A DNA stretch of 64,000 bases from Methanomicrobium antiquum (GTDB taxonomy: Archaea > Halobacteriota > Methanomicrobia > Methanomicrobiales > Methanomicrobiaceae): assembly GCF_029633915.1 (NCBI RefSeq), contig NZ_CP091092.1, forward strand, positions 1,798,001 through 1,862,000, given 5' to 3'. Below the pieces are notes generated by a model. The model saw only the letters and a program-made list of their open reading frames with translations, ran no database searches and had not been told where the DNA came from. This document shows positions 5,898 to 25,844 of the stretch, one piece after another. Numbering within the stretch: the first letter of the stretch is position 1; the number at the start of each line of letters is the position of its first letter. The position numbers were made by a program, and so were the translations under genes.

Positions 5898-6281
5898 CAT
5901 CGACGGCCGCACAGGATAGCAGCGATAATCGAGGCCCCCGGTACCGGGGAAGCAATCGAAGCAGAGACTCTTTTACGGCTTGCAAACCTCCTCCCAAAAG
6001 AGGAGACCAAACCGGTCCCGAAGACAGGGGATAAGAAGATCGATCTCTCCCGGTGGCTATCAGAGCATGGAATAACAGTTCGGAGTGAAAGACCCTGGCA
6101 GGGCGGAACCCTCTTCGTCCTCGACGAATGCCCCTTCTCCTCCGCCCACAAAGACGGGGCCTTTGCCATCCAGTTCGCGGGCGGCGCAATCTACGCCGGA
6201 TACCACCACAATTCCTGCGGCGGAGGAAAACAGAGATGGGCCGAAATACCGACCATACAGCAGAATCGACCTTTGTCATAA
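5898..6281 (+). pseudogene. Fragment of a plasmid/virus replication (primase-like) gene
   Basis: An open frame without a start codon runs from the stop at 5895 to TAA at 6279-6281. Its translation contains IDLSRWLSEHGITVRSERPW, then CPFSSAHKDGAFAIQF, then AGYHHNSCGGG. This Cys/His pattern and wording resemble zinc-binding primase/helicase proteins of phages and plasmids (recognised from memory). Both ends of the gene are missing. The family resemblance stops near 6240, where it meets the broken Cdc6 gene on the other strand. GC content is far above that of the AT-rich flanks. Confidence 0.6.
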
Positions 6282-6831
6282 AATCGATATCAAGTTTGCT
6301 TATAGTCGCAATTACTCCCAGTTTTGCGCCAGGATACTACTCGTAAATCCGGAGCAGCACATAGAGTATGTCATTTAAGCGGTCCTCATACATCAGATAA
6401 TTTACATCATCGAGACATACGACTGCAACCGTCTTCGACTCGACAAGGTAATTTCCAATCTCATTGTAGATCTTTCGAAATGCAATCCCTGTTGTCGGAG
6501 GGTAGTGTCCGAATATCTGGTTAAATATTGTGGCAAAGACCGAGACCCGTGTCCGGTCATTCTTGCAGTTGACATAAACCGGCACAATCCTTTTAGTCGT
6601 CTGCTCTATCTCGGAGAAGAGCAGTCGCACGGAGGTAGTCTTCCCCGTTCCCGGAAGCCCCCGGATTACAGAGTTAAACGGCCGGCTGCCTTTCATTGCA
6701 GGCCCGAGTGTATAGGCAAGTTCATCAAGCTGTGTATCTCTGAAATTGAACTGTTCAGGCATGTAATCTATATCAAAAATATCAGGGTCCCTGAAGAGAG
6801 TCTGGTCCCCCCTTAGCAAATGCCTCTTCAT
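6240..6831 (-). pseudogene. Broken Orc1/Cdc6 replication initiator
   Basis: The N-terminal 164 residues are a good Cdc6/Orc1 AAA+ domain: an RDxQLDEL segment, Walker A GLPGTGKTT, and Walker B-like CLDD. An in-frame TAG at 6337-6339 follows VLLRIYE, after which the same frame continues as YPGAKLGVIATISKLDIDFM, the normal Cdc6 continuation. The usual residue there is Glu, so one GAG-to-TAG change explains the stop. Similarity ends near 6240 at the junction with the primase fragment, so the rest of the AAA+ domain and the winged-helix domain are gone. Normal length is about 370-420 aa. Confidence 0.8.
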
Positions 6832-11663: not shown

Positions 11664-12341
11664 TCATCTGTCGCTAATATATGCTTTATGAACAAAAAGA
11701 ACATCTTCATCTTCATTTATTTCTTCCAACAATCTGATCATTTCTTCATTTGAATTATCAGTAGTATATTTTTTTGTACTTGCAGATCTTGTCTTTTTAA
11801 CCGGTATTCCGGCGTCTTTCATCTCTTCAAAACAATTTTTCTGACTGATAGGACAATTATCAAGGCCCAAGATTATATTATCGCCTCTTTCTTTTTCAAA
11901 AGCGATTATTCCTTCGTCATAGCAATCATAATGATAGTTTAGATACAATCCCCAATTTTCTTTGATTAGTGAGGTGTAATAGTTGTACTTATCCTTGGAA
12001 GAATCTAGATAATAGAGAAATTCTGAGGAACTGTTAAAAATTCTCCACTCGTCATCATAATTACCGAAATATTTGGTCATAATATCATTAATATCTTCAT
12101 TAGAAGTCTCCGAATCAAAAATCAGTGTCGGTTTCCATGAAGCATTTTTTAAGAATGATTGACATTCATCAGTGTATAGCGGTGGATCATAATCTTCTGG
12201 ACAATCACACTCAACCTTTTCATAATATGAACTTTCATTTAAAGGTCTTGTAACATTATTTTCTTCCAGACATCCAGCTGATAATATGAATATCGAAATT
12301 ATCAATCCTAATACGATGATTTTTTTCATAGCTTTTATCAT
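11664..12341 (-). CDS. Secreted lipoprotein, function unknown
   Basis: 225 aa. The N-terminus is a lipoprotein signal with lipobox LSAGC, so the mature protein should be anchored on the outer face of the cytoplasmic membrane. The mature part is acidic with scattered Cys (CDCPEDYDPP, then a later CPISQKNC), which may form disulfides or bind metal. Met5 (12329) is an alternative start. It begins 10 nt after the stop of the polytopic membrane protein gene, so the two are probably an operon. Confidence 0.65.
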   Translation of the reverse strand: MIKAMKKIIVLGLIISIFILSAGCLEENNVTRPLNESSYYEKVECDCPEDYDPPLYTDECQSFLKNASWKPTLIFDSETSNEDINDIMTKYFGNYDDEWRIFNSSSEFLYYLDSSKDKYNYYTSLIKENWGLYLNYHYDCYDEGIIAFEKERGDNIILGLDNCPISQKNCFEEMKDAGIPVKKTRSASTKKYTTDNSNEEMIRLLEEINEDEDVLFVHKAYISDR

Positions 12342-12351
12342 TCTCTGTAAA

Positions 12352-13482
12352 TTACGAATTACAAATTTTTAATTTTCCTTTATGCAGTTTCAATACCGAA
12401 ATCTGATACAGTATTGCTGCAACTGACATACCCAACATAGCATTTGTTACTATCGACAAGGAAGACTGCGGAAGAAGGTCGGGCTGCATGTATATTCCTG
12501 TTGATATATATACCTCAACGATTGCGATTAACACCCCTGCTCCCAAAACAACTCCAAAAACTGTAAGATTAAGCAGAATATCATCCATCTTCGGCATGAA
12601 ATAAGGTAAAGGAGCAAGCATTAAAAGTACCATAAAGACAAGCGGGAAGACCCATATCGGGAAATACTGACCGACATCAGGTCCGATTGCCGCAAGATAC
12701 GAACCGATAAACTCACAAAAGATCCCCATTACTGCCAGAATCGCAACCAAGACAATCCTATTGATCGCGGCCGAAAATTTTACCAACAGGGGTAAGAATA
12801 TAACAGCATAAACTGCAACTGCAGTTTGATATGTAAGAAAAATCACCGTGATGACCATAATAACAGCAAGGATCACATGAAATAACCTTGATTCAATCTG
12901 AGTAAGAATTTCTGATAAAACATAGAAATATCCTAAAATTGCAAATGTGATCGCTATTGATGCAATGAAGGGAGAGGTTGCAGGAAACAGCCAGATTATG
13001 CTGATATTACTGCCCGGTGTCATCATAACCGAGACGAGATACGAATAATATAAAATTGTGGTTGCCATTAGTGTAAATAAAAGAAGCAGACATCTCCATA
13101 GTTTAGTAATTTTTATATCAGGAAGAAGGAGACAAGCAGGAATCAGACTCCCGATAAGAATAGAGATGTATTCCAAGACTCCTGAAAGGTCATTTCTGAA
13201 CACGTACCATGTCCCGTAGGGTCCTCCGGGAATGAAAAGATCAGGGAACCATACTTCCATAAAATTTTGAACAAGCCAGGCACAAACCGAAAATAACAAA
13301 CCGGAGGTTACTAGGATAAAAAACAGGTATTTCCGAGATTTCATTCGTGAAACGAGGATAAATAATCCCACTGCAATCACCGCACCTGCCAAAAAGACAT
13401 CTGCATCAACTACTAAGGACGGGACAGGGACATTTGTAACTTTTAGTTTTCCATCAAATATCCAGTTTACTAGTGAATACAT
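12352..13482 (-). CDS. Polytopic membrane protein, function unknown
   Basis: 376 aa, about ten hydrophobic segments separated by short loops, ending in a basic KLHKGKLKICNS tail. No transporter signature is recognisable. It lies directly upstream of the lipoprotein gene and 72 nt downstream of the C39-like peptidase gene, in the same direction. Confidence 0.6.
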   Translation of the reverse strand: MYSLVNWIFDGKLKVTNVPVPSLVVDADVFLAGAVIAVGLFILVSRMKSRKYLFFILVTSGLLFSVCAWLVQNFMEVWFPDLFIPGGPYGTWYVFRNDLSGVLEYISILIGSLIPACLLLPDIKITKLWRCLLLLFTLMATTILYYSYLVSVMMTPGSNISIIWLFPATSPFIASIAITFAILGYFYVLSEILTQIESRLFHVILAVIMVITVIFLTYQTAVAVYAVIFLPLLVKFSAAINRIVLVAILAVMGIFCEFIGSYLAAIGPDVGQYFPIWVFPLVFMVLLMLAPLPYFMPKMDDILLNLTVFGVVLGAGVLIAIVEVYISTGIYMQPDLLPQSSLSIVTNAMLGMSVAAILYQISVLKLHKGKLKICNS

Positions 13483-13554
13483 ATAATATTGTCTCCATGA
13501 AATTCAATCCATAATAAACATAAACTCTTAAAAAAATAAGGTGATCTCCTGGCC

Positions 13555-14772
13555 TTAAGGCCTAATATACACGGGGTATATAGAATTCCAGTTTCCAAAG
13601 GCGATATACCTTGTATCTGATGTTGACCAGCCGTCATTGATCTCTATGGCATCAAATGAACCATCGGCCCACCCGACAGCCGCAACGGAATGATTGCCAT
13701 ATTCTGTTGAACCACCTATTGCAGTCCCGGCTCCATGCATAGCAAGATGCATTGGACGATCTGCTGTGACCTCAGATTTAACTTCTGAGAAATAGAAACC
13801 CCAGCCATCAGGCTCGGCATCTATGTCATATCCATAATCATCACATACACTTTCGATACCAGGTTCGATATTAGAATCATATGTTCCATCAACAGGGTCT
13901 GTATCCATTGCAGAGTATAAATCAAGAATTAACGTATCTCCATTTGACGGGAAATTAGAATAACCGTTACTTCGCCAATAGGATAAAATCATACCTGAGG
14001 CAGTAGGGGCACATGAATTTGGATAACCTGAAGGTTGATCATAGAGAGGAACCCAGTATATTGTATCAGCTCCGCGAACGGAAGTTGAAACTGTTGCTCC
14101 ACTGCTTACAAGTCCGATGTTTTCATTTACAATCGTCCATTCATCTTCAACCGAAATTGCATCCGATCCTGATTTTACATTAGTCAACGCTGTAGAAGAA
14201 TCATCATTTTTTAGATCTACAACAGCTTCATTAAAGAGATCAACAATAACATCCTGTTTTACATTTTGAAGTGAATTCTCAAATGTATATTGACCATAAT
14301 AAAATGTCGCTCCAAGATAGAGATACTTTACAGAATCCAGTTTACAACCAGCGTCTCCAATGAACTTCTCTGCCGTGAATTGTGCATTTTCTTTTGTTTT
14401 TTCTGGGACAATATCTCCTTTCCCAAATTCCAGGATAGGATAATTATCTTTATTTCCAGAAATCAGGATGAATCCCAAGTAGTTTCCATCTTTTACAACA
14501 GAGAATGAATAAGCGGCAATGTTCCCATTTAGATCATAAAAAGTCAGATCAGATTCAACATTAGCCCCAGTCCATTCAGAAAATCCACTCATACCTTCTG
14601 ATACATCATTGAGATGTAATTGCGCTATCTTTTTAGCATAATCCAATGTTATAGTACTGTTTAGTTGTTCATTCACAGAAGTGCTGGCACTAACAACCGG
14701 AACAAACATCGCCCCGGCGAGTGCAACTATCAATAGCAGGCTCAACGCCCGCATTCCTTCCTTTGCGTTCAT
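13555..14772 (-). CDS. Secreted C39-like (papain-fold) peptidase domain protein
   Basis: 405 aa. The signal peptide ends near VPVVSA. The C-terminal half is a Peptidase_C39_2-type domain: catalytic Cys in SCAPTASGMILSYW, His in GNHSVAAVGW, and a later Asn/Asp in EINDGWS. A mature N-terminal region of about 200 residues is acidic and may act as a propeptide or binding domain. The start is fixed by GGAG 8 nt upstream of the ATG. The first 29 residues and the whole upstream leader are almost identical to those of the gene ending at 16779, although the mature proteins are unrelated. Confidence 0.75.
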   Translation of the reverse strand: MNAKEGMRALSLLLIVALAGAMFVPVVSASTSVNEQLNSTITLDYAKKIAQLHLNDVSEGMSGFSEWTGANVESDLTFYDLNGNIAAYSFSVVKDGNYLGFILISGNKDNYPILEFGKGDIVPEKTKENAQFTAEKFIGDAGCKLDSVKYLYLGATFYYGQYTFENSLQNVKQDVIVDLFNEAVVDLKNDDSSTALTNVKSGSDAISVEDEWTIVNENIGLVSSGATVSTSVRGADTIYWVPLYDQPSGYPNSCAPTASGMILSYWRSNGYSNFPSNGDTLILDLYSAMDTDPVDGTYDSNIEPGIESVCDDYGYDIDAEPDGWGFYFSEVKSEVTADRPMHLAMHGAGTAIGGSTEYGNHSVAAVGWADGSFDAIEINDGWSTSDTRYIAFGNWNSIYPVYIRP

Positions 14773-14990
14773 GTTTTCGTCTCCATTTCTTTTCCCATGG
14801 TCCCGGAGACAGAAAATCCAGAGGTTTCATATATTTTCGAAGCCCTATTACAATTTGCCCCCAGGCATGCAGGAGTCTGACCGTTCCTGATAGTCAGGTT
14901 CAGACCCCCTGCAACATCTCTTCGATGCTACATGGATGACTTTTCGTTCAGTACAATATAAATTCCATAACTCGATCATCGAACTGTTCC
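14773..14990 (-). promoter_or_regulatory. Duplicated promoter/leader cassette, copy A
   Basis: Nearly base-for-base similar to 17298-17507. From upstream to downstream on the minus strand: the motif GATCATCGAACT (on the plus strand at 14974-14985), a TATA-like TTTATATT near 14958, a predicted transcript start near 14934, then a leader of about 160 nt. In the leader, GGGGTCTGA can pair with TCAGACTCC and enclose an inner CCTGA/TCAGG stem. The GGAG ribosome-binding site precedes the ATG at 14772. The length and conservation suggest a functional structured 5' UTR. Confidence 0.6.
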
Positions 14991-15215
14991 AGAATTTTGA
15001 TCTAAACTCTATAAAATAGGCTATTTTAGCAAATTAAAATTTGAAACGTTTATCCAAAAAATACTGTTAATTTACGAAACTGTCACCGTAAGCCAACCAA
15101 ATCCAATTATACTCTCAAAGAGTAAAAAATCAAAGCGGAATACTTACTCACTCTGCAACAGGTCAGGAGTTTATATTAAAATTTGATGTATTGATCTCAT
15201 TCGGATAGGCCATAA

Positions 15216-15330
15216 AGTCCAATGGTTCTATGCCGGGATCGAGCCATTGGGACAAAAGAGTTCCTTCACTGAATAAACTTCCTCGATAAAGGAGAAGATG
15301 GTTATTTCATCATCTTTCTCCTCAATTGTA
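15216..15330. other. Two hairpins in a 400-bp gene-free stretch
   Basis: GTCCAATGG pairs with CCATTGG-GAC around 15217-15251, and GGAGAAGATG pairs with CATCTTTCTCC around 15292-15326, each with one bulged base. They could be terminators or remnants of a leader RNA. I see nothing else between 14991 and 15402. Confidence 0.4.
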
Positions 15331-15402
15331 TGTATTTAGACTGACTTCAGTAGGATTGCTGATAATATTAACCTGGCAGTACTGCATAATTTTTGCCTCA
15401 TA

Positions 15403-15567
15403 TTAACGATTATTGAGTATGAAAAATGCTATAGAGAAGCCGATTGTAGTTCCAAAGGCAACAATCCAGTTCACTTTTCCCTCAATTAAATAACTTAGTC
15501 CAATGATGAGGAGAAAGACAACTATTGCTAATATAATTGAAATCCTGACATCCATCATATTATTCAT
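15403..15567 (-). CDS. 54-residue two-helix membrane protein
   Basis: Small open frame MNNMMDVRISIILAIVVFLL and onward, ending FFILNNR. Two hydrophobic segments (about residues 9-27 and 33-51) are separated by a short charged loop LIEGKVN. The regular hydrophobic pattern and basic/polar ends look like a real protein rather than chance. No family recognised. It lies in the same direction as the neighbouring secreted-protein genes. Confidence 0.5.
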   Translation of the reverse strand: MNNMMDVRISIILAIVVFLLIIGLSYLIEGKVNWIVAFGTTIGFSIAFFILNNR

Positions 15568-15698
15568 AGATCAATCATCTCAGTAATAAGCTTTAACAGT
15601 AGCCCAGTTGTTCACAGGCATGATAATTATTGCTAACTTTTCTTTAGATTTCATTTTTTTTGCGATCCTTGATTGAGTGAAATATTAATTAAAATAAA

Positions 15699-16748
15699 TT
15701 AAACTCCACTTACATTGAGGCCAATCCTGACACTCGGTTCGCTCCACGGCCACTGCCCGATATCCCGGGAAATTCCTTCAGATACCTCCATCTGTTGATA
15801 GGGTGCAGGAACCCACAGTACAAATAACTCATGAACTCCTTCTTCTTCAGGAACTATGATACTGGCAGGGAGTGAGATCTTCTCTCCTGCTTTCAGAGAA
15901 CAGAATATCGTACTGACAGAATCATCGACACGTAATGGTACCTGAACAAAGTCTACGAAGGGAATCAGGGCGAAAGTAACCGGATAATCCTCATCAGCGG
16001 CGGCATTGATCCAATAATCCAGACGTTCGCCAGGGGTTACATCTTCGGTGAACCAGCCTGTCGTCGAACAGGGAGTACGTGTGATCAGCAAACCGTCGTT
16101 TATCGGATAATCGGGGTTGCATGGAACGGAAGAGATTACGGATGAATTTGCGTAAGTTACTGTAGGATAATCCTCAGAATCCACGAATATGCTGAGACGT
16201 TTACTTCCAAGATATGAAAAGTCGGTAGAACGCCTGAAGGATTTTTCTAACGAATGTTCGTATGGCCTCATCACAAGCACAATCTCAACATCATGTTCTC
16301 CACGGGTTAGAGGGTCGATCTCAAAGCGGAAAAAGTCTTCTTCGAAGGGCTCAAGATGAATTGAGTGCAGAATTTCCTTTTTCCTTTCATCTCCAAAAAT
16401 AAAGGGAACCTGTTCGTAATCTGAAAGCAAAAAAACTAAAAAATCATTTTCTGATGTCATCTGGTTGCTAACCCACAAATATGCAGTTAGAGATTGATTC
16501 TCATTAATTGTAGCGCTGTGATGAAGTGAATGATTTGATATGTGTACAGGAGCATCATACAAACCTATACCAAAACTTTCGTCGACTTTGTCCTCGTCAT
16601 AAGTTGTTTCTATAGAATAACTTGAGTCGTTTCCAGTTATCTTCATTGTCCAGTCGTCAATATTATTATCAGATAACAGGACAACAGCCAATAATCCTAT
16701 CGATAGTCCAACAATAGAAATTATTATCAGTTGCGATTTTTTTTTCAT
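15699..16748 (-). CDS. Membrane-anchored extracytoplasmic protein, function unknown
   Basis: 349 aa. A KKK start followed by one hydrophobic segment (about residues 6-25) anchors a large beta-rich extracytoplasmic domain. Two sections of the mature part each contain a sugar-binding-like or immunoglobulin-like strand pattern. No known family. It begins 30 nt after the stop of the short secreted gene at 16779-17297, so co-transcription from leader B is likely. Confidence 0.6.
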   Translation of the reverse strand: MKKKSQLIIISIVGLSIGLLAVVLLSDNNIDDWTMKITGNDSSYSIETTYDEDKVDESFGIGLYDAPVHISNHSLHHSATINENQSLTAYLWVSNQMTSENDFLVFLLSDYEQVPFIFGDERKKEILHSIHLEPFEEDFFRFEIDPLTRGEHDVEIVLVMRPYEHSLEKSFRRSTDFSYLGSKRLSIFVDSEDYPTVTYANSSVISSVPCNPDYPINDGLLITRTPCSTTGWFTEDVTPGERLDYWINAAADEDYPVTFALIPFVDFVQVPLRVDDSVSTIFCSLKAGEKISLPASIIVPEEEGVHELFVLWVPAPYQQMEVSEGISRDIGQWPWSEPSVRIGLNVSGV

Positions 16749-16778
16749 ACTCTCACTAAAAAAGAAAATTAATTTTTT

Positions 16779-17297
16779 TTATTCATTAAACTCATCTTCT
16801 GTCTTGGGGTACCATTGATCGTTATTTGCATAATACTCAAATGTGTGATCTGACTTAGCAAGCCAGTGAGCATACGCTGATCCAGTCGTTTCGTAATTTA
16901 CTTCAGCATCAGCCGACTGATAATTGGTATCTGTTTGATCAGTCTGAAGATCGTCATCCTCCCAGACACGAGCCCTTACTCCAATTGTATCAATATCAAA
17001 AGGATCTCCGGTACCCTGTTCTCTGGATTTGGAATATTGTTCTGAATAGATCTCATCATATATATGCCAGATGTTTGTATAGGCTCTCCATTCATAAGTG
17101 ACAGATTTGGTGCCTAAAAGCGAATTTGATGGCACATTGGAGTACTTAACAAGTTCCATTCCATCAGGGTCTTCTATGATGGCAGATTTTGCCTGATTTG
17201 CTGTATCTACAGCACTAACAACCGGAACAAACATCGCCCCGGCGAGTGCAACTACCAAAAGCAGGCTCAACGCCCGCATTCCTTCCTTTGCGTTCAT
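16779..17297 (-). CDS. Secreted protein sharing its signal peptide with the C39-like peptidase
   Basis: 172 aa from ATG at 17297, the start matching that of the C39-like gene. GGAG lies 8 nt upstream in both. An in-frame ATG 8 codons earlier exists only because this copy has one extra A in the leader. The signal peptide MNAKEGMRALSLLL...VPVVSA is the same as in the other gene apart from one residue. The mature 143 residues are polar, with many Tyr, Asp and Gln, and no recognised domain. Confidence 0.65.
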   Translation of the reverse strand: MNAKEGMRALSLLLVVALAGAMFVPVVSAVDTANQAKSAIIEDPDGMELVKYSNVPSNSLLGTKSVTYEWRAYTNIWHIYDEIYSEQYSKSREQGTGDPFDIDTIGVRARVWEDDDLQTDQTDTNYQSADAEVNYETTGSAYAHWLAKSDHTFEYYANNDQWYPKTEDEFNE

Positions 17298-17507
17298 GTT
17301 TTTCGTCTCCATTTTTTTCATGCCCCCGGAGACTGTAAATTCAGAGTTTTCATATATTTTGGAAGCCCTATTACAATTTGCCCCCGGGCATGCAGGGTTT
17401 AACCGTTCCTAAACGTCGGGCTTGACCCCCATAACATCCCTTTTGGATGCTACATAGATGACTTTTCGTTCATTACAATATAAATTCAATAACCCGATCG
17501 TCGAACT
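17298..17507 (-). promoter_or_regulatory. Duplicated promoter/leader cassette, copy B
   Basis: Counterpart of copy A: the same GATC(G/A)TCGAACT motif at 17496-17507, TATA-like sequence near 17481, about 155 nt of leader, and the GGAG site before ATG 17297. Conserved leader blocks include one reading GCCCTATTACAATTTGCCCC on the plus strand. A CATCC/GGATG hairpin near 17445 matches a CATC/GATG hairpin in copy A with different loop sequence. Confidence 0.6.
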
Positions 17508-17530
17508 GTAAACGCGATAGTTTGACGATC
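17496..17530. promoter_or_regulatory. Inverted repeat operator between divergent promoters
   Basis: GATCGTCGAACT (17496-17507) and AGTTTGACGATC (17519-17530) are inverted 12-bp arms with one mismatch and an 11-bp spacer. The left arm is the motif also found upstream of leader A. The repeat sits between the leader B promoter (leftward) and a TATA-like TATATTTAAG near 17538 for the rightward secreted gene. Confidence 0.6.
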
Positions 17531-17596
17531 AGGCTAATATATTTAAGTAGTCCTTTTTTCCAACAGATCATTCATTGAGAACAGGAGAATGAAATT

Positions 17597-18052
17597 ATGT
17601 TGAAAAAGATTGCAATTACACTACTAGTCCTTTTTTGCTGCGTTTCTTTTGTATCCGGCGCGGCCGGTGAAGAAGAAGCAGGTACAGACCTTACAAAGAA
17701 ATTCGATGGTTACACCATACTGCCGGCAAAAGACTCCGGCGGGGAGCCCGGCATGAAGTACGTATTCGATACCATCACCCAAGGGGAGACAAACTGGCAT
17801 TCAAAATATGTCAGCTCGGATATCACGGTCTTAAACGTCGACCTCAACTGGGGCGATTACACAGATTCGCTGAGGCTGAAGATCTATACGCCCGACTGGC
17901 AGTGTCTGGGCAGTTATTATGACAGTGCCGACGGATCAATCGACGGCAGGATCAATCTCGACATCAGTAATCCCGGTGGAATCGCAAAAGGCACCTGGTA
18001 TTATGAAGTGTATGGTAACGATGTCTCCGGGACCGAAGATTATTATATATAA
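17597..18052 (+). CDS. Small secreted protein with beta-sandwich-like domain
   Basis: 151 aa. Signal peptide cleaved near VSG-AAG. The mature domain, with alternating hydrophobic strands, resembles prepeptidase C-terminal (PPC)-type beta domains: DITVLNVDLNW, SLRLKIYTPD, and a KGTWYYEVYGND ending. The ATG at 17597 is preceded by AGGAG at 9 nt. It is followed after 20 nt by the membrane winged-helix gene; this pairing suggests the regulator senses something linked to this protein. Confidence 0.6.
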   Translation: MLKKIAITLLVLFCCVSFVSGAAGEEEAGTDLTKKFDGYTILPAKDSGGEPGMKYVFDTITQGETNWHSKYVSSDITVLNVDLNWGDYTDSLRLKIYTPDWQCLGSYYDSADGSIDGRINLDISNPGGIAKGTWYYEVYGNDVSGTEDYYI

Positions 18053-18072
18053 TATCTCATAATTGATCATCA

Positions 18073-18810
18073 ATGGGGGGTATAATAAGAATCTTCATCC
18101 TTTTTTCCGTTTTTCTGGCATTTACAGTCCCCGGGATTGCATCAGCGGAATATATCGTAAAATCACATGAAGACAACACGGAACTTATTGAAAAAGGATT
18201 CATTGACTCAGCCGGTGCCGATACAAATATCACATTTTGGGATCTCCCGTTATGGATCAAGATTTCGTTTATTGCCGGAATACTTGCCGCAGGCATGGGA
18301 ATTATAAAATTAATCCCTGCCATCATAGGCAGGATCACAGATCCACTGGAAAACGGAATACGGCAGGAGATATTTGAATATATATCGGAAAATCCAGGAT
18401 GCACAATTACAGATCTTTCAGACAATCTGGATCTTAACAGGAGTTCGACAAAGTACCACATCTTGAAGCTTAAATTCCATAAAATAGTTAATATACATAA
18501 AACAGAGAAACACCTCAGATTATTCAAAAATTCAGCGACTTTCAACGAACACCAGAGAATGACTATATCTCTCCTGAAAAATAAGACCGGGAGAATGCTT
18601 CTGATAAGCATTCTGGAAAACCCCGGGATAACAAATGGTGAACTTGCAAGGAAGCACAACATGAATAAGAGCACCATTCACTGGCACATCAATAAATTTC
18701 TAGAAACTGGTGCCATCAATTATATTCCTGAAGGAAAACTCAGGAGATATTACCTCACCTCTTCTTTTGAAAATAGCATAAGGGTTTTCTTGGAAGATGG
18801 TCGGGTCTAA
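18073..18810 (+). CDS. Membrane-anchored double winged-helix regulator
   Basis: 245 aa. An N-terminal signal-like helix, a short extracytoplasmic segment of about 35 residues, and a second membrane helix (about residues 58-85) lead to two cytoplasmic winged helices: one around CTITDLSDNLDLNRSSTKYH and one around ITNGELARKHNMNKSTIHWH. Archaeal one-component regulators of this form read an external or membrane signal and bind DNA directly. The inverted repeat at 17496-17530 is a candidate target (inference). Confidence 0.75.
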   Translation: MGGIIRIFILFSVFLAFTVPGIASAEYIVKSHEDNTELIEKGFIDSAGADTNITFWDLPLWIKISFIAGILAAGMGIIKLIPAIIGRITDPLENGIRQEIFEYISENPGCTITDLSDNLDLNRSSTKYHILKLKFHKIVNIHKTEKHLRLFKNSATFNEHQRMTISLLKNKTGRMLLISILENPGITNGELARKHNMNKSTIHWHINKFLETGAINYIPEGKLRRYYLTSSFENSIRVFLEDGRV

Positions 18811-19122
18811 TCCAGTAGACGAGGACATGTACACAATCACCTCTCAAACCAGTTGAGGGTTTCAAGGTGACATCCTCTGTTCCGAATATCATCAGGAAGC
18901 TGGGTTATATCATTCGTGGCAAAATAAAAAATATCAATAAGTCTTCCAGTTCTTTAGGCTTGACAGACATAATACGGAAACAAGGTTCCTTTTTTTCTTT
19001 TTATTATTAAGCGGAATTTTTAAAGGAGTCTTTTCCAATTTCCGACTGTTTTCTATCGTTACACCCCTCTCTTTACAGAACCACTCCATTATTTGGAGGG
19101 AATTCCTTCTACCCCCCGCGGA

Positions 19123-21977: not shown

Positions 21978-24900
21978 TCACATGAAATCAGCCAGTCCAA
22001 GCTGTTTTTCAGGAGGCTCACCAAATGTTGACAAAACAGCCATCCTTAATACCTCAACACGCTGTTTTGTGTACTCGGAGACATCATAATTTTCACACAT
22101 CTGAATCGACATATCAAGATATTTTTTGACAGATCCTTCATGAACAGTTGCAATAAGCTTGTTTCCGCATTTTGTGCACTTGCCTGCAATAGGCATCCTC
22201 CTGTATTTTGAGCCGCATCTTGTGCATCTCATTGTCTGCTTTGAAAACGAATTCAGATTTCCCATAATATCACGGATGAAATGTGTCTTTAAAACCCTTT
22301 CTGCAACATCGCTTTCATCAACTGCACGGATAAGCCTTCCAAGCTCAAGTTCGGCATCCAGTTTGTCAAACATCGTTGTCAGAGTATTGTATGACGAGAT
22401 AAGCGGACCTGCGGAGATATCGGATGTATCATGAGTAAACATAATTCCCTCATACTGAGCAGGCGTTCCAAGCCTCAAATCAACGTGATCAATCTCCTTT
22501 TCAATATCCTTGGGATGTACGTATTCAAGCGCTGATAAATACATCTTAAGGGGATATTTTTCACAACAGTCAACGTTGTGACATTCACCATCAACCTCGG
22601 CAGGATCAATTCTTTTTGTCAAAACAAGCGGCGCATCCATTGACCCTCCCCTTGTCTCAGGCAAAAACGCCTTTGAAAAGTTGATTAACCCGTCTAAAAG
22701 GAGCATCACGCAGTCCTCATCGCCATCGCACTGGCCTGTAAATATTCCGTTTGCACAAAGAGTATGATCAGTATCAACCGTTAAGCAATAGACATAATCT
22801 TCGGCAGATTCAAGAATTGTCCTTTTTGTGACAATATCGGTTATCATCATACCGTTTTCAAATGTAGGAACATAATCGCCCTCATTTAACTCAATCGCCT
22901 TTATTTTTCTCTGATACGCCATATCACTTACAAGCATCGCATGATCAGGTGTTACAGTTACAGACCTGCCGCGGTTTGTCTCAAACATAATCAGGGTTTT
23001 TGGTGCACGGTGAACAGAGACTGATGTGATCCGGCGAAGACGCACCATTCCGGCTGAATCAATCGAATGCACCCAGAATGTCTTTTGCGGATCAGAATAG
23101 TATGTTCCAACACAATCCAGTTCGGGTCTTGAAAGATCGAAATTTTCAACAACAAAGTCCTTAATCGGAAGATCTCTCCATAGAGCGCCATCGGTTACGG
23201 AGATTACAGTCTCTCCGGCAAAACAGTTTCGCCTCTTTGCCGCATGAAAATAAGGATGACCATATCCCACATGTGCACGGGAATAGCCAAGAAGCCTTAC
23301 AAGGACACCGGCGCTTGTGTGAGGTGCAAGGCCCATCAAAAGCTGGCCGACAAGATCCTCTTTCTTCTCTGCCTTGTAAAATGGCTCCATATTGTAGAGC
23401 TTTACAAGCATCTCGTCAATAAATCCGGCAACCTTCAAAAGCCACTCGCCACAGCCGGTTGAGACAAGAATATCCTGGCATTTGAGTTCAAGAATCTGAT
23501 CGTTGTTTTCAAGCGGCTTTCCATAAACATCATGAGTGTATCCAAGCTCAACAAGCCTCTCCCATGAAACACTTATTTCTTTTGGACGGAAATGAGTCAG
23601 AGGAAGGTCTATCATGTCATAACGGACAGTTCCGTCTTTGAAGACATAAAGCTCTTTTCCGGCGCGAAGAATTCCCTTTTCAAGAGGCTCAACACATCTT
23701 TCCTTAGACATTAACCCTTTGACGCCTTTACATAGCTTTATCTCGGAATCACGAATCCCAAGATTCAAAAGAGCTTTTTCATACTCAGTTTTTACATTAA
23801 GTTTAAGTTCCTGAAGACAGACACCTTCTGTTTTGCATGACGGACAAACACCCTCAGGTGTTGCACGCCCGCATCTTGGGCAGAGATATACCGCTGTCGT
23901 ATGCCCGCCGCATTCGCATTTATTTCTAAAAGTCTCCTTTCCACAGACTTCACATCTCCGAAGACCAATCTCTGCGGAAATCACTCCCCCATTCCTGTTA
24001 TCTTTGCTTTTGGACGCCTCCTGAAATGAACGTCTTGTTCCACCCTCATCGCCGACAGGGAATAGTCCGTGCGGAGGCGGGTTCATCTTTCTCTCTTTGG
24101 ATTTTCCGGGCCGCCCCATACGACCTCCTATCCTTGTTCCTGCCCGGGATCTCATTTTAAATCCGGACATGTGCATTACCATCTCCATTGGATCATTTTT
24201 CGGAGCAGTATCACGGGATGGAAGCTTTTCAAGGGTCTCAGAAATTCCAAGACATGCAAGAAATGCAAGAGGCTTATCAATCAGGATTTTTCCTTCACGA
24301 ACTTTATGAAGGACTAAAAGTTCTTCAAGGACGGACTTTTGCACCTCATCATTTGGAAGAGAAAGAATTCCGTCTGAAATTTTTCCATTCAAAAGCACAA
24401 AATCAGACAAAGAGGAAATTTGATCAGTCTTAATATCGTCCCACATGTAAGTATAGTCGGGATGCAGAAAATACCCCTCTTTTGCAAGCGAAACTGCCTC
24501 TTTTTCATCAGAAGGCTGGTCTTTTCCTTCGTTTTCCAAAGTCCACCACTCATGACAGTATGATGACGGGATGAGAAGATGGTTATTCTCTAAAAATTCC
24601 CCAAAGCTCACAAGCATCTCACCTACATCAACAATTTTTGAGATACTGTGCATCAGAGGAAGAGCTTCTTCAACTGTATCGGCCCTTACAAGATCGCCGT
24701 TTAAAAGCCGGATTGTAGGGCCCTGTATTGTGTCAACAGGAACCACTCCTGCCGCTTTTCCGGGCCTCTCAACTTTCATCTGTGTACCGACAGCCAAAAA
24801 ATCTCCCAAAAGATGAAGTGTTGCAGGATTAAATCCGGCAGAGGCAAAACCTGTGTTTCTCGATCTTCCATAGCGAAGGCGAAATCCCCCTTTTCTCATT

Positions 24901-25844
24901 GGATAGGAAAATACAGGCCTTCCTCCGATTAAATCCCGTATATATTTATCCTTTGGCTTAATCTTTGGCCCGCCCTCTTCAAGCTCCTCATCATCAGAGG
25001 GTTTTGCCGCACCGGAGACCAAAACGTCAAGCCATTCCCAGCCTTCCATTTTGACCTTTCTTACAACTTTTTGAATCTTCGGAGCTTTAAGACCGAGACC
25101 TTCAGCGACAACAAGCGCCATTCCGCCGCGGACTGTGTTCGTCTCAACTCTCTCTAAATTACGATATCCTGATACTTCTACTCTTTCTGTAGGTTCACCT
25201 TCAACACAAACAGGGCAGTTTCTGATTATATGGCGGATATCATCATCAGATGGAAGATACTGCAGACTAAGTATTGAGTTGTATTTTTTTATCTCCTCGA
25301 CATAACGCTCGACTTCATCGTCCCTTGGGATGTAACGGTTCATCCCAAGCTTTTTTCTGACGTAATCGCCGACCAGAACAGAAAGTGCCTGTGCTGTTCC
25401 ACCCGCACTTCTGATTGGGCCTGCATAATAAATTTTTAGATATTCTGTTCCGTCATCGTTTTTTCCGATTCCAATCTTTCCTATACCTTCTGTAGGTGCG
25501 GCGACAACACCTTCTGTTAAAAGTGCCATGGATGTACGAATCGCATGATCCAAAATATCCTCTTTTGTCTCCTCACCGAATTTTTTAGAGACGAAATCAT
25601 CACCAATCTTTAATGATACCTCTTCACGCGACATTGTCTCTGAAAGCTCACGAAGCCGCTTCGCAACACCCTTGTATCCCATTAGTGCTTCAACTCTGTC
25701 TGCAAGATCGCTTGCTATCGGAATTTCTACATAATCCCGTGGATCAAATCCTAAAAGGCGTGCCTGTTTTGCAATTTCAATTGCATCATAAAGGCCGTCT
25801 TCAATTGATTTGAAGTACGCATCCATCTCCGGTGAGGTCTGCAT
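21978..25844 (-). CDS. polC: DNA polymerase D large subunit DP2 with mini-intein
   Basis: 1288 aa before splicing, 1123 after. This is the catalytic large subunit of the archaeal replicative polymerase PolD. Typical features are the N-terminal [10 protein letters not shown]-like region (here [10 protein letters not shown]), an [13 protein letters not shown] segment, the zinc-finger series CEVCG, CECG, CPRCG and CPSC in the middle, and a C-terminal [10 protein letters not shown] and CTKCG pair. The intein interrupts residues 874-1038, just before the conserved CDGDED motif whose acidic residues are part of the active site. The small subunit DP1 is not in this window. Confidence 0.97.
22731..23225 (-). 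other. Mini-intein in DP2 (165 residues, no homing endonuclease)
   Basis: It begins with Cys at the junction [13 protein letters not shown] (block A) and contains block [11 protein letters not shown], block F-like [20 protein letters not shown], and a C-terminus FTGQ followed by extein Cys (CDGDED). The terminal Gln instead of Asn is known from DP2 inteins of other archaea. At 165 residues there is no room for a LAGLIDADG endonuclease, so it can splice but not home. Confidence 0.93.

Follow-up and report, generated by a model that had tools for sequence, protein, structure and literature searches.

A portable promoter, leader RNA and signal peptide module on unrelated secreted proteins of Methanomicrobium antiquum and other archaea

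Results

Genes A and B share an upstream block and a signal peptide

A window of 64,000 nucleotides of the Methanomicrobium antiquum chromosome (contig NZ_CP091092.1, positions 1,798,001 to 1,862,000) was analysed around two genes for secreted proteins, both on the minus strand and named here A and B; coordinates are those of the window. Gene A (13555–14772) codes for a secreted C39-like cysteine peptidase of 405 amino acids and gene B (16779–17297) for a secreted protein of 172 amino acids, and they belong to the cargo families C15 and C9 described below. Local alignment revealed an upstream block of about 300 bp common to both (14687–14987 for A, 17212–17509 for B), which an earlier note on this DNA had described accurately. 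An operator-like site, a TATA box (14954–14965, GAATTTATATTG, for A and 17476–17487 for B, both minus strand, located by sequence), a leader, a ribosome binding site (RBS, GGAG) and 29 signal-peptide codons follow each other in this order. The leader part is 85% identical between A and B by blastn. The signal peptides (14686–14772 and 17211–17297, minus strand), delimited by alignment and signal-peptide search, are identical in 28 of 29 residues, and similarity stops where they end (...VSA), the mature proteins being unrelated from residue 30, again as had been claimed. The start of B was placed at 17297 by its RBS and the family alignment; the entry in the list of open reading frames (ORFs) begins at an upstream ATG, 17321.

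When the genome and its relatives were searched for further copies, 12 signal-peptide copies were found in four clusters of the 2.44-Mb chromosome (E values from 2.6e-13 to 5.6e-3), so that the case which the earlier note had named as refuting its idea, A and B being the only two copies, does not hold. DNA of the A and B leader, called type I, accompanies six of the 12 (E values from 7e-123 to 1e-11, with no further match below E = 1) and a second leader type the other six. Among 60 relatives, the signal peptide is present in 19 genomes, with 22 copies in Methanoplanus limicola (G016), 13 in G007 and 9 in G013, against zero in G011, a congener of G016. Its family motif is KxGMRALSLLL...FVPAVSA, to which the signal peptides of Methanosarcinaceae (GIGALLFSML...VFVPVVSA) are similar.

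One copy of the M. antiquum genome (c2248, L034:6693–6881) codes for 62 amino acids only, and a 234-amino-acid protein of locus L139, similar past the signal peptide, suggests that this copy is truncated. Transposase-like genes, through which the clusters may have spread, adjoin two of them (L032:13726–15153 and L033:10580–11515).

The leader RNA has a structure kept across archaeal orders

The type I leader is about 165 nt long. A covariance model (R1) built from 12 such leaders delimited that of A at 14773–14935 (159 bits) and that of B at 17298–17457 (123 bits), both on the minus strand, as are all the helices given here. In A, folding and covariation support helices P1 (14912–14930), P2 (14869–14912) and P4 (14779–14810), the last pairing GUCUCC with GGAGAC over the RBS, and covariation supports hairpin P3 (14856–14867, UGCCUGGGGGCA). 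In B, P1 (17432–17452) and P4 (17305–17333, over the RBS) come from the fold and P3 (17379–17390, UGCCCGGGGGCA) from covariation; the P2 region spans 17395–17430, where RNAfold of B alone favours a different pairing.

R1 matched 12 of the 28 genomes of the family and also Methanogenium, Methanococcoides, Methanohalophilus, other Methanosarcinaceae and Methanoperedens records; in a sample from the phylum, 43 of 393 genomes, from 16 genera, had matches. These lay mostly directly before secreted-protein genes, and at most named loci a signal-peptide protein starts 0–4 nt past the leader. When 22 diverse leaders were aligned by MAFFT without fitting to the model, RNAalifold recovered P1, P2 and P3, and 9 of the 18 pairs showed compensatory changes. 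Once the leaders were aligned to the model, double changes were seen in 26 of 28 pairs (at most 16 in slid controls), and covariation cells numbered 137, against 38 ± 6 in shuffled and at most 39 in slid controls. The mean folding z over 40 leaders was −3.2. The P4 pairing over the RBS is GUCUCC/GGAGAC in Methanomicrobiaceae and GCCUCU/AGAGGU in Methanosarcinaceae.

Rfam searches gave zero matches at E ≤ 1 in positions 12500–19000 of the window and one tRNA only in six related loci, and the identity of the leader with a known Rfam RNA was rejected. The leader has the conserved secondary structure of a regulatory 5′ leader and lies outside the Rfam families. The earlier note had proposed a regulatory RNA: the structured RNA stands, conserved across archaeal orders, and its actual regulation we infer. 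The 3′ arm of P3 (GG[A/G]GGCA) is Shine–Dalgarno (SD)-like and has the anti-SD arm of P4 as a second possible partner. All seven pairs can form in 22 of the 40 leaders, and covariation is only modestly above shuffles, which makes a bistable P3/P4 switch plausible. For the type II leader, marked by AACCGGCA...TGCCGGTT, RNAalifold gave a 6-bp helix alone. This leader lies upstream of the RBS and can be recognised by TTTGCATGCCGG, with a candidate pairing AACCGGCAT...ATGCCGGTT in most of 33 copies; its loci are L032 (G000 1958000–1974000), L033 (2170000–2186000), L065, L068, L069, L073, L075 and L077.

The block could also be a recently spread DNA repeat, duplicated or gene-converted, in which leader and signal peptide were kept by copying and not by function. 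Copies are indeed most alike within a cluster, as with the 85% of A and B, transposases adjoin two clusters, and close leaders on their own do not covary. This local homogenisation is real, yet it leaves two things unexplained: the leader occurs in Methanosarcinaceae and Methanoperedens with compensatory changes, mostly before genes for secreted proteins, and it is the operator, not its flanks, that recurs in the promoter of the regulator operon described below. Cross-order covariation largely refutes the repeat explanation, and we consider it very improbable. Recent local duplication as a full explanation was ruled out because the leader is kept across orders with compensatory changes; the system is old and widespread, not a duplication.

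Cargo families are coupled to specific partner genes

Once the signal peptide was stripped off, the proteins bearing it formed 24 cargo families. Those recognised are C39-like peptidases, M12-like peptidases and one DUF6345 protein, and many have no Pfam match. Gene A matches the Pfam profile Peptidase_C39_2 (E value 1.1e-9, 39.4 bits against a cutoff of 24) and also carries the catalytic motifs of C39-like peptidases, NSCAPTASG (252, Cys), NHSVAAVGW (360, His) and INDGW (378, Asn/Asp). Gene B, predicted to be all-beta, had zero sequence matches in Pfam, NCBIfam and PDB; the fold search of PDB gave no confident match, and only one of five models scored well. Sequence searches of PDB with A, B and the regulator-operon protein F2 returned nothing meaningful.

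The family of the cargo predicts the next gene: 36 of 67 same-cargo pairs were concordant, against 2.9 expected by permutation (maximum 13 in 5000), and with the largest family, C0, set aside, 20 of 22 pairs were concordant against 1.0 expected. The median gap between cargo and partner is 24 bp, and 42 of 44 partners have an N-terminal hydrophobic segment, anchor-like or lipoprotein-like. The pairings are C1 with F6 (5/5), C2 with F14 (3/3), C3 with F8 (3/3), C0 mostly with F3 or F5, and C9 with F29; the C11 and F13 pair was seen again in a Methanosarcinaceae-like genome. The partner of B is an F29 protein of 349 amino acids with an N-terminal anchor (15699–16748, minus strand). Homologues of C9 occur with F29 in the same loci of Methanoculleus, Methanoregulaceae and Methanolobus, as judged from the main matches, with part of F29 in L149. 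Directly downstream of A, a polytopic membrane protein of 376 amino acids (12352–13482, minus strand) is the candidate cognate partner; the second gene after A (11664–12341, minus strand) codes for a lipoprotein-like protein of 225 amino acids of family F6, whose direct 5′ neighbour elsewhere (5/5), C1, is a C39-type cargo.

Some C9 homologues (L149–L151) bear an unrelated signal peptide; therefore, cargo and partner go together as a unit that can be separated from the front end. C0, C1, C4, C5 and C8 are each found under leaders of more than one type. The modularity proposed in the earlier note thus holds in both directions: the same front end serves many cargo families, and a single cargo family can stand under different front ends. 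The partners are most likely immunity proteins that protect the producer.

The main rival explanation sees the cargos as regulated secreted hydrolases or surface proteins for nutrition or envelope remodelling, and the partners as dedicated inhibitors, chaperones or anchors, which would hold the enzyme in an inactive state up to its release. C39 and M12-like peptidases are among the cargos, the long region that precedes the catalytic domain of A could be a propeptide, and a chaperone or inhibitor would likewise be linked to its enzyme. However, most cargos have no recognisable enzyme domain, cargo content differs strongly between related genomes (22 copies in G016, none in G011), and the partners, though coupled to cargo class, split into many separate families. 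We regard this explanation as rather unlikely.

A regulator operon and the cargo genes share an operator-like site

An operon on the plus strand adjoins gene B. Its first gene, F2 (17597–18052), codes for a secreted beta jelly-roll protein of 151 amino acids with the motif IxQGETNW...LNW...YYDSADG, assigned by alignments, model and fold match. The second, F1 (18073–18810), codes for a membrane-anchored regulator with a short outside segment and two winged-helix domains (Pfam HTH_24 and HTH_HVO_0163_N). With two hydrophobic segments at the N-terminus and cytoplasmic winged helices, F1 has the architecture of a membrane-tethered one-component regulator. The operon adjoins most clusters, either divergent from the first cargo gene or slightly upstream of it, and is divergent beside cargo across Methanomicrobiales, Methanosarcinaceae and Archaeoglobaceae. 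A first scan of genome contigs with F1 gave no match. The scan of named genomes with F2, a secreted family of about 150 amino acids, gave matches in Methanogenium, Methanoculleus, Methanoregula, Methanolobus, Methanococcoides, Methanohalophilus, Methanoperedens and Archaeoglobales records, where F1 was usually adjacent and secreted genes lay on the opposite side. AlphaFold2 modelled F2 as a beta jelly roll (predicted local distance difference test score 82), and Foldseek placed it nearest to the Tk-SP subtilase structures (E value 3.6e-4, TM score 0.49), a moderate match presumably to the jelly-roll domain of the subtilase.

The F2 and cargo promoters of one cluster have in common a site of about 18 bp, generally directly 5′ of the TATA box. 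A shared-motif search located it upstream of the regulator operon (17519–17536, plus strand, AGTTTGACGATCAGGCTA) and of B (17489–17507, minus strand, AGTTCGACGATCGGGTTAT), the latter with a score of 23 against a shuffled maximum of 13. The site of A (14967–14985, minus strand, AGTTCGATGATCGAGTTAT) is the weakest match to the F2 site in the window, with 5 of 18 mismatches; it fails the shuffle control by itself (score 10) and was assigned through the alignment to B. The sequence is specific for each cluster (AGTTYGACGATCRGGYTA in the window, TAATTCGATGATTTGGTCAGAA in L066 and TTGTTCAAGAGCATGGTGAAAG in L071): mean mismatches over 18 bp were 2.9 within a cluster, 6.4 between clusters and 7.1 for random segments. 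F2–cargo scores exceeded shuffles in most cases, and F2 and cargo promoters share the site but not the flanking sequence. Such a site would be the expected trace of a cluster-specific regulator that controls itself, and F1 is the putative binding protein. The operon and the shared operator had been missed by the earlier note, as had the cognate partner of each cargo and the age and spread of the system.

Small peptides stand under the same front end

Five intact ORFs of 45–46 amino acids in Methanoplanus limicola (L065 2882–3022 and 16516–16656; L069 2533–2673, 8019–8156 and 10720–10857) combine the signal peptide of the family with one and the same 17-mer, VDTDFISPNYAGKIIPF; a sixth is broken (L065, about 9986). 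Each lies about 400–550 bp upstream of a cargo gene, and the 17-mer is a candidate secreted peptide signal or bacteriocin. In Methanogenium and relatives (L116, L129 and L080, in the last after the leader at 6144–6299), ORFs of 51–52 amino acids under a type I leader have a conserved mature peptide of about 28 residues, ASNPGIW..F.FN.EQ.NCILAS.NIVR.G.

Quorum-type signalling would make such peptides pheromones sensed by F2 or F1, and the larger cargos their induced output. The repeated 17-mer upstream of cargos, the Methanogenium versions with a different peptide, the outside segment of F1 and the secretion of F2 fit this idea. Nevertheless, the 17-mer was seen in G016 only, a small peptide gene was not found in the cluster of the window, and the outside segment of F1 has about 40 residues only, so that we hold the idea to be improbable.

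Elsewhere in the window (21978–25844), an ORF of 1288 amino acids resembles the large subunit of archaeal DNA polymerase D with an intein-like insertion.

Discussion

Computation establishes the module and how far it has spread, the structure of the RNA, the operator common to F2 and cargo promoters, and the pairing of cargo with partner. The reading that we favour, with a probability of roughly 0.58, is a modular system that expresses and exports secreted effectors under regulation and provides them with cognate, immunity-like partners. Toxicity and immunity we infer from anatomy, because diverse secreted proteins come with specific anchored partners in clusters that vary between related genomes. 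In the proposed mechanism, an operator 5′ of the TATA box, a folded leader and a Sec-type signal peptide would form a portable module on each effector, be it a C39 or M12-like peptidase or a member of the many families without an assigned domain, and each effector would be followed by its own membrane protein or lipoprotein partner. F1 and F2 probably sense something outside the cell and switch both the cluster operators and the one before the operon that encodes them. The leader would act on translation as well, probably with its last helix masking the RBS or exposing it. One regulator and one RNA leader would in this way turn on a set of effectors together.

A more specific version of the regulated effector system can be offered only tentatively. 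The leader would represent a new class of archaeal leader RNA and act as a translational switch with two states: off while the anti-SD arm of P4 holds the RBS, and on when that arm pairs instead with the SD-like 3′ arm of P3. As a second layer below the membrane regulator, it would arm effectors and immunity together in methanogens, possibly in answer to a secreted peptide or to kin.

Several observations weigh against the effector system as a whole. Most cargos have no known toxin domain, and the peptidases could be nutritional or envelope-processing enzymes. The operator motifs were picked by the similarity between F2 and cargo promoters, and therefore the shuffle controls outweigh the absolute mismatch figures; moreover, the cargo upstream regions of a cluster are partly recent copies of one another. 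P4 is weak on its own (mean z −0.8) and was recovered only through the alignment fitted to the covariance model. Among the 12 close Methanomicrobiaceae leaders by themselves, covariation was not above shuffling; therefore, the evidence for the RNA comes from distant relatives. Finally, the idea that regulator subtype dictates leader type does not hold, and therefore the leader need not belong to the F1 circuit; the operator alone follows the cluster.

To our knowledge, few examples of either regulatory leader RNAs or regulated antagonism systems have been described for archaea. In class II bacteriocin regulons, unrelated effectors have a leader peptide and a promoter box in common, together with immunity genes and a dedicated sensor-regulator. 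The system described here resembles them in its shared leader, shared box, partner per effector and regulator, but it has a Sec-type signal peptide instead of a double-glycine leader, a one-component membrane regulator, an RNA leader and many large cargos. The YSIRK-type signal peptides of Gram-positive bacteria are also unusually conserved across many unrelated secreted proteins; here, the motif is different and conservation reaches into the leader RNA and the promoter.

Effector–immunity islands are of a known kind in archaea (PMC8416519). The polymorphic toxin systems and archaeocins discussed there likewise have secreted proteins in hypervariable arrays, where each effector stands next to a dedicated membrane or immunity gene. 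In contrast to their long delivery protein with a common N-terminal region, swapped C-terminal toxin domains and toxin-end cassettes, which was not seen here, the present proteins have only the 29-residue signal peptide in common, and what stays constant is the promoter with the RNA leader and the signal peptide, accompanied by a membrane regulator and its secreted companion. Their specific immunity gene beside each toxin may have a counterpart in the partner genes, whose linkage to cargo is strict. In the VARTIG modules of Thermococcales (PMC8416519), each subfamily of variable secreted proteins is also followed by a specific family of membrane proteins, but these modules belong to another lineage and have large Ig-domain proteins, and searching that text by terms gave no mention of a promoter module. 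Structured 5′ leaders with a helix over the RBS, as in translational riboswitches, are represented in archaea by the L7Ae leader (PMC6298567), and long 5′ untranslated regions occur in Methanolobus (PMC5378194); the leader described here differs in having no Rfam match, in being tied to one class of secreted genes and in that no ligand or binding protein is assigned to it. None of the literature searched described a module of promoter, structured RNA and signal peptide that has its own membrane regulator and serves about two dozen cargo families; the Makarova 2019 survey of archaeal toxins, outside that search, may list some of the protein families.

Leader, signal peptide, operator and membrane regulator together delimit a regulon that is open to sequence searches. 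Through the module, dozens of secreted proteins that otherwise have no annotation become candidate archaeal effectors, and their partners candidate immunity proteins. The system also occurs in Methanosarcinaceae, where genetics is feasible.

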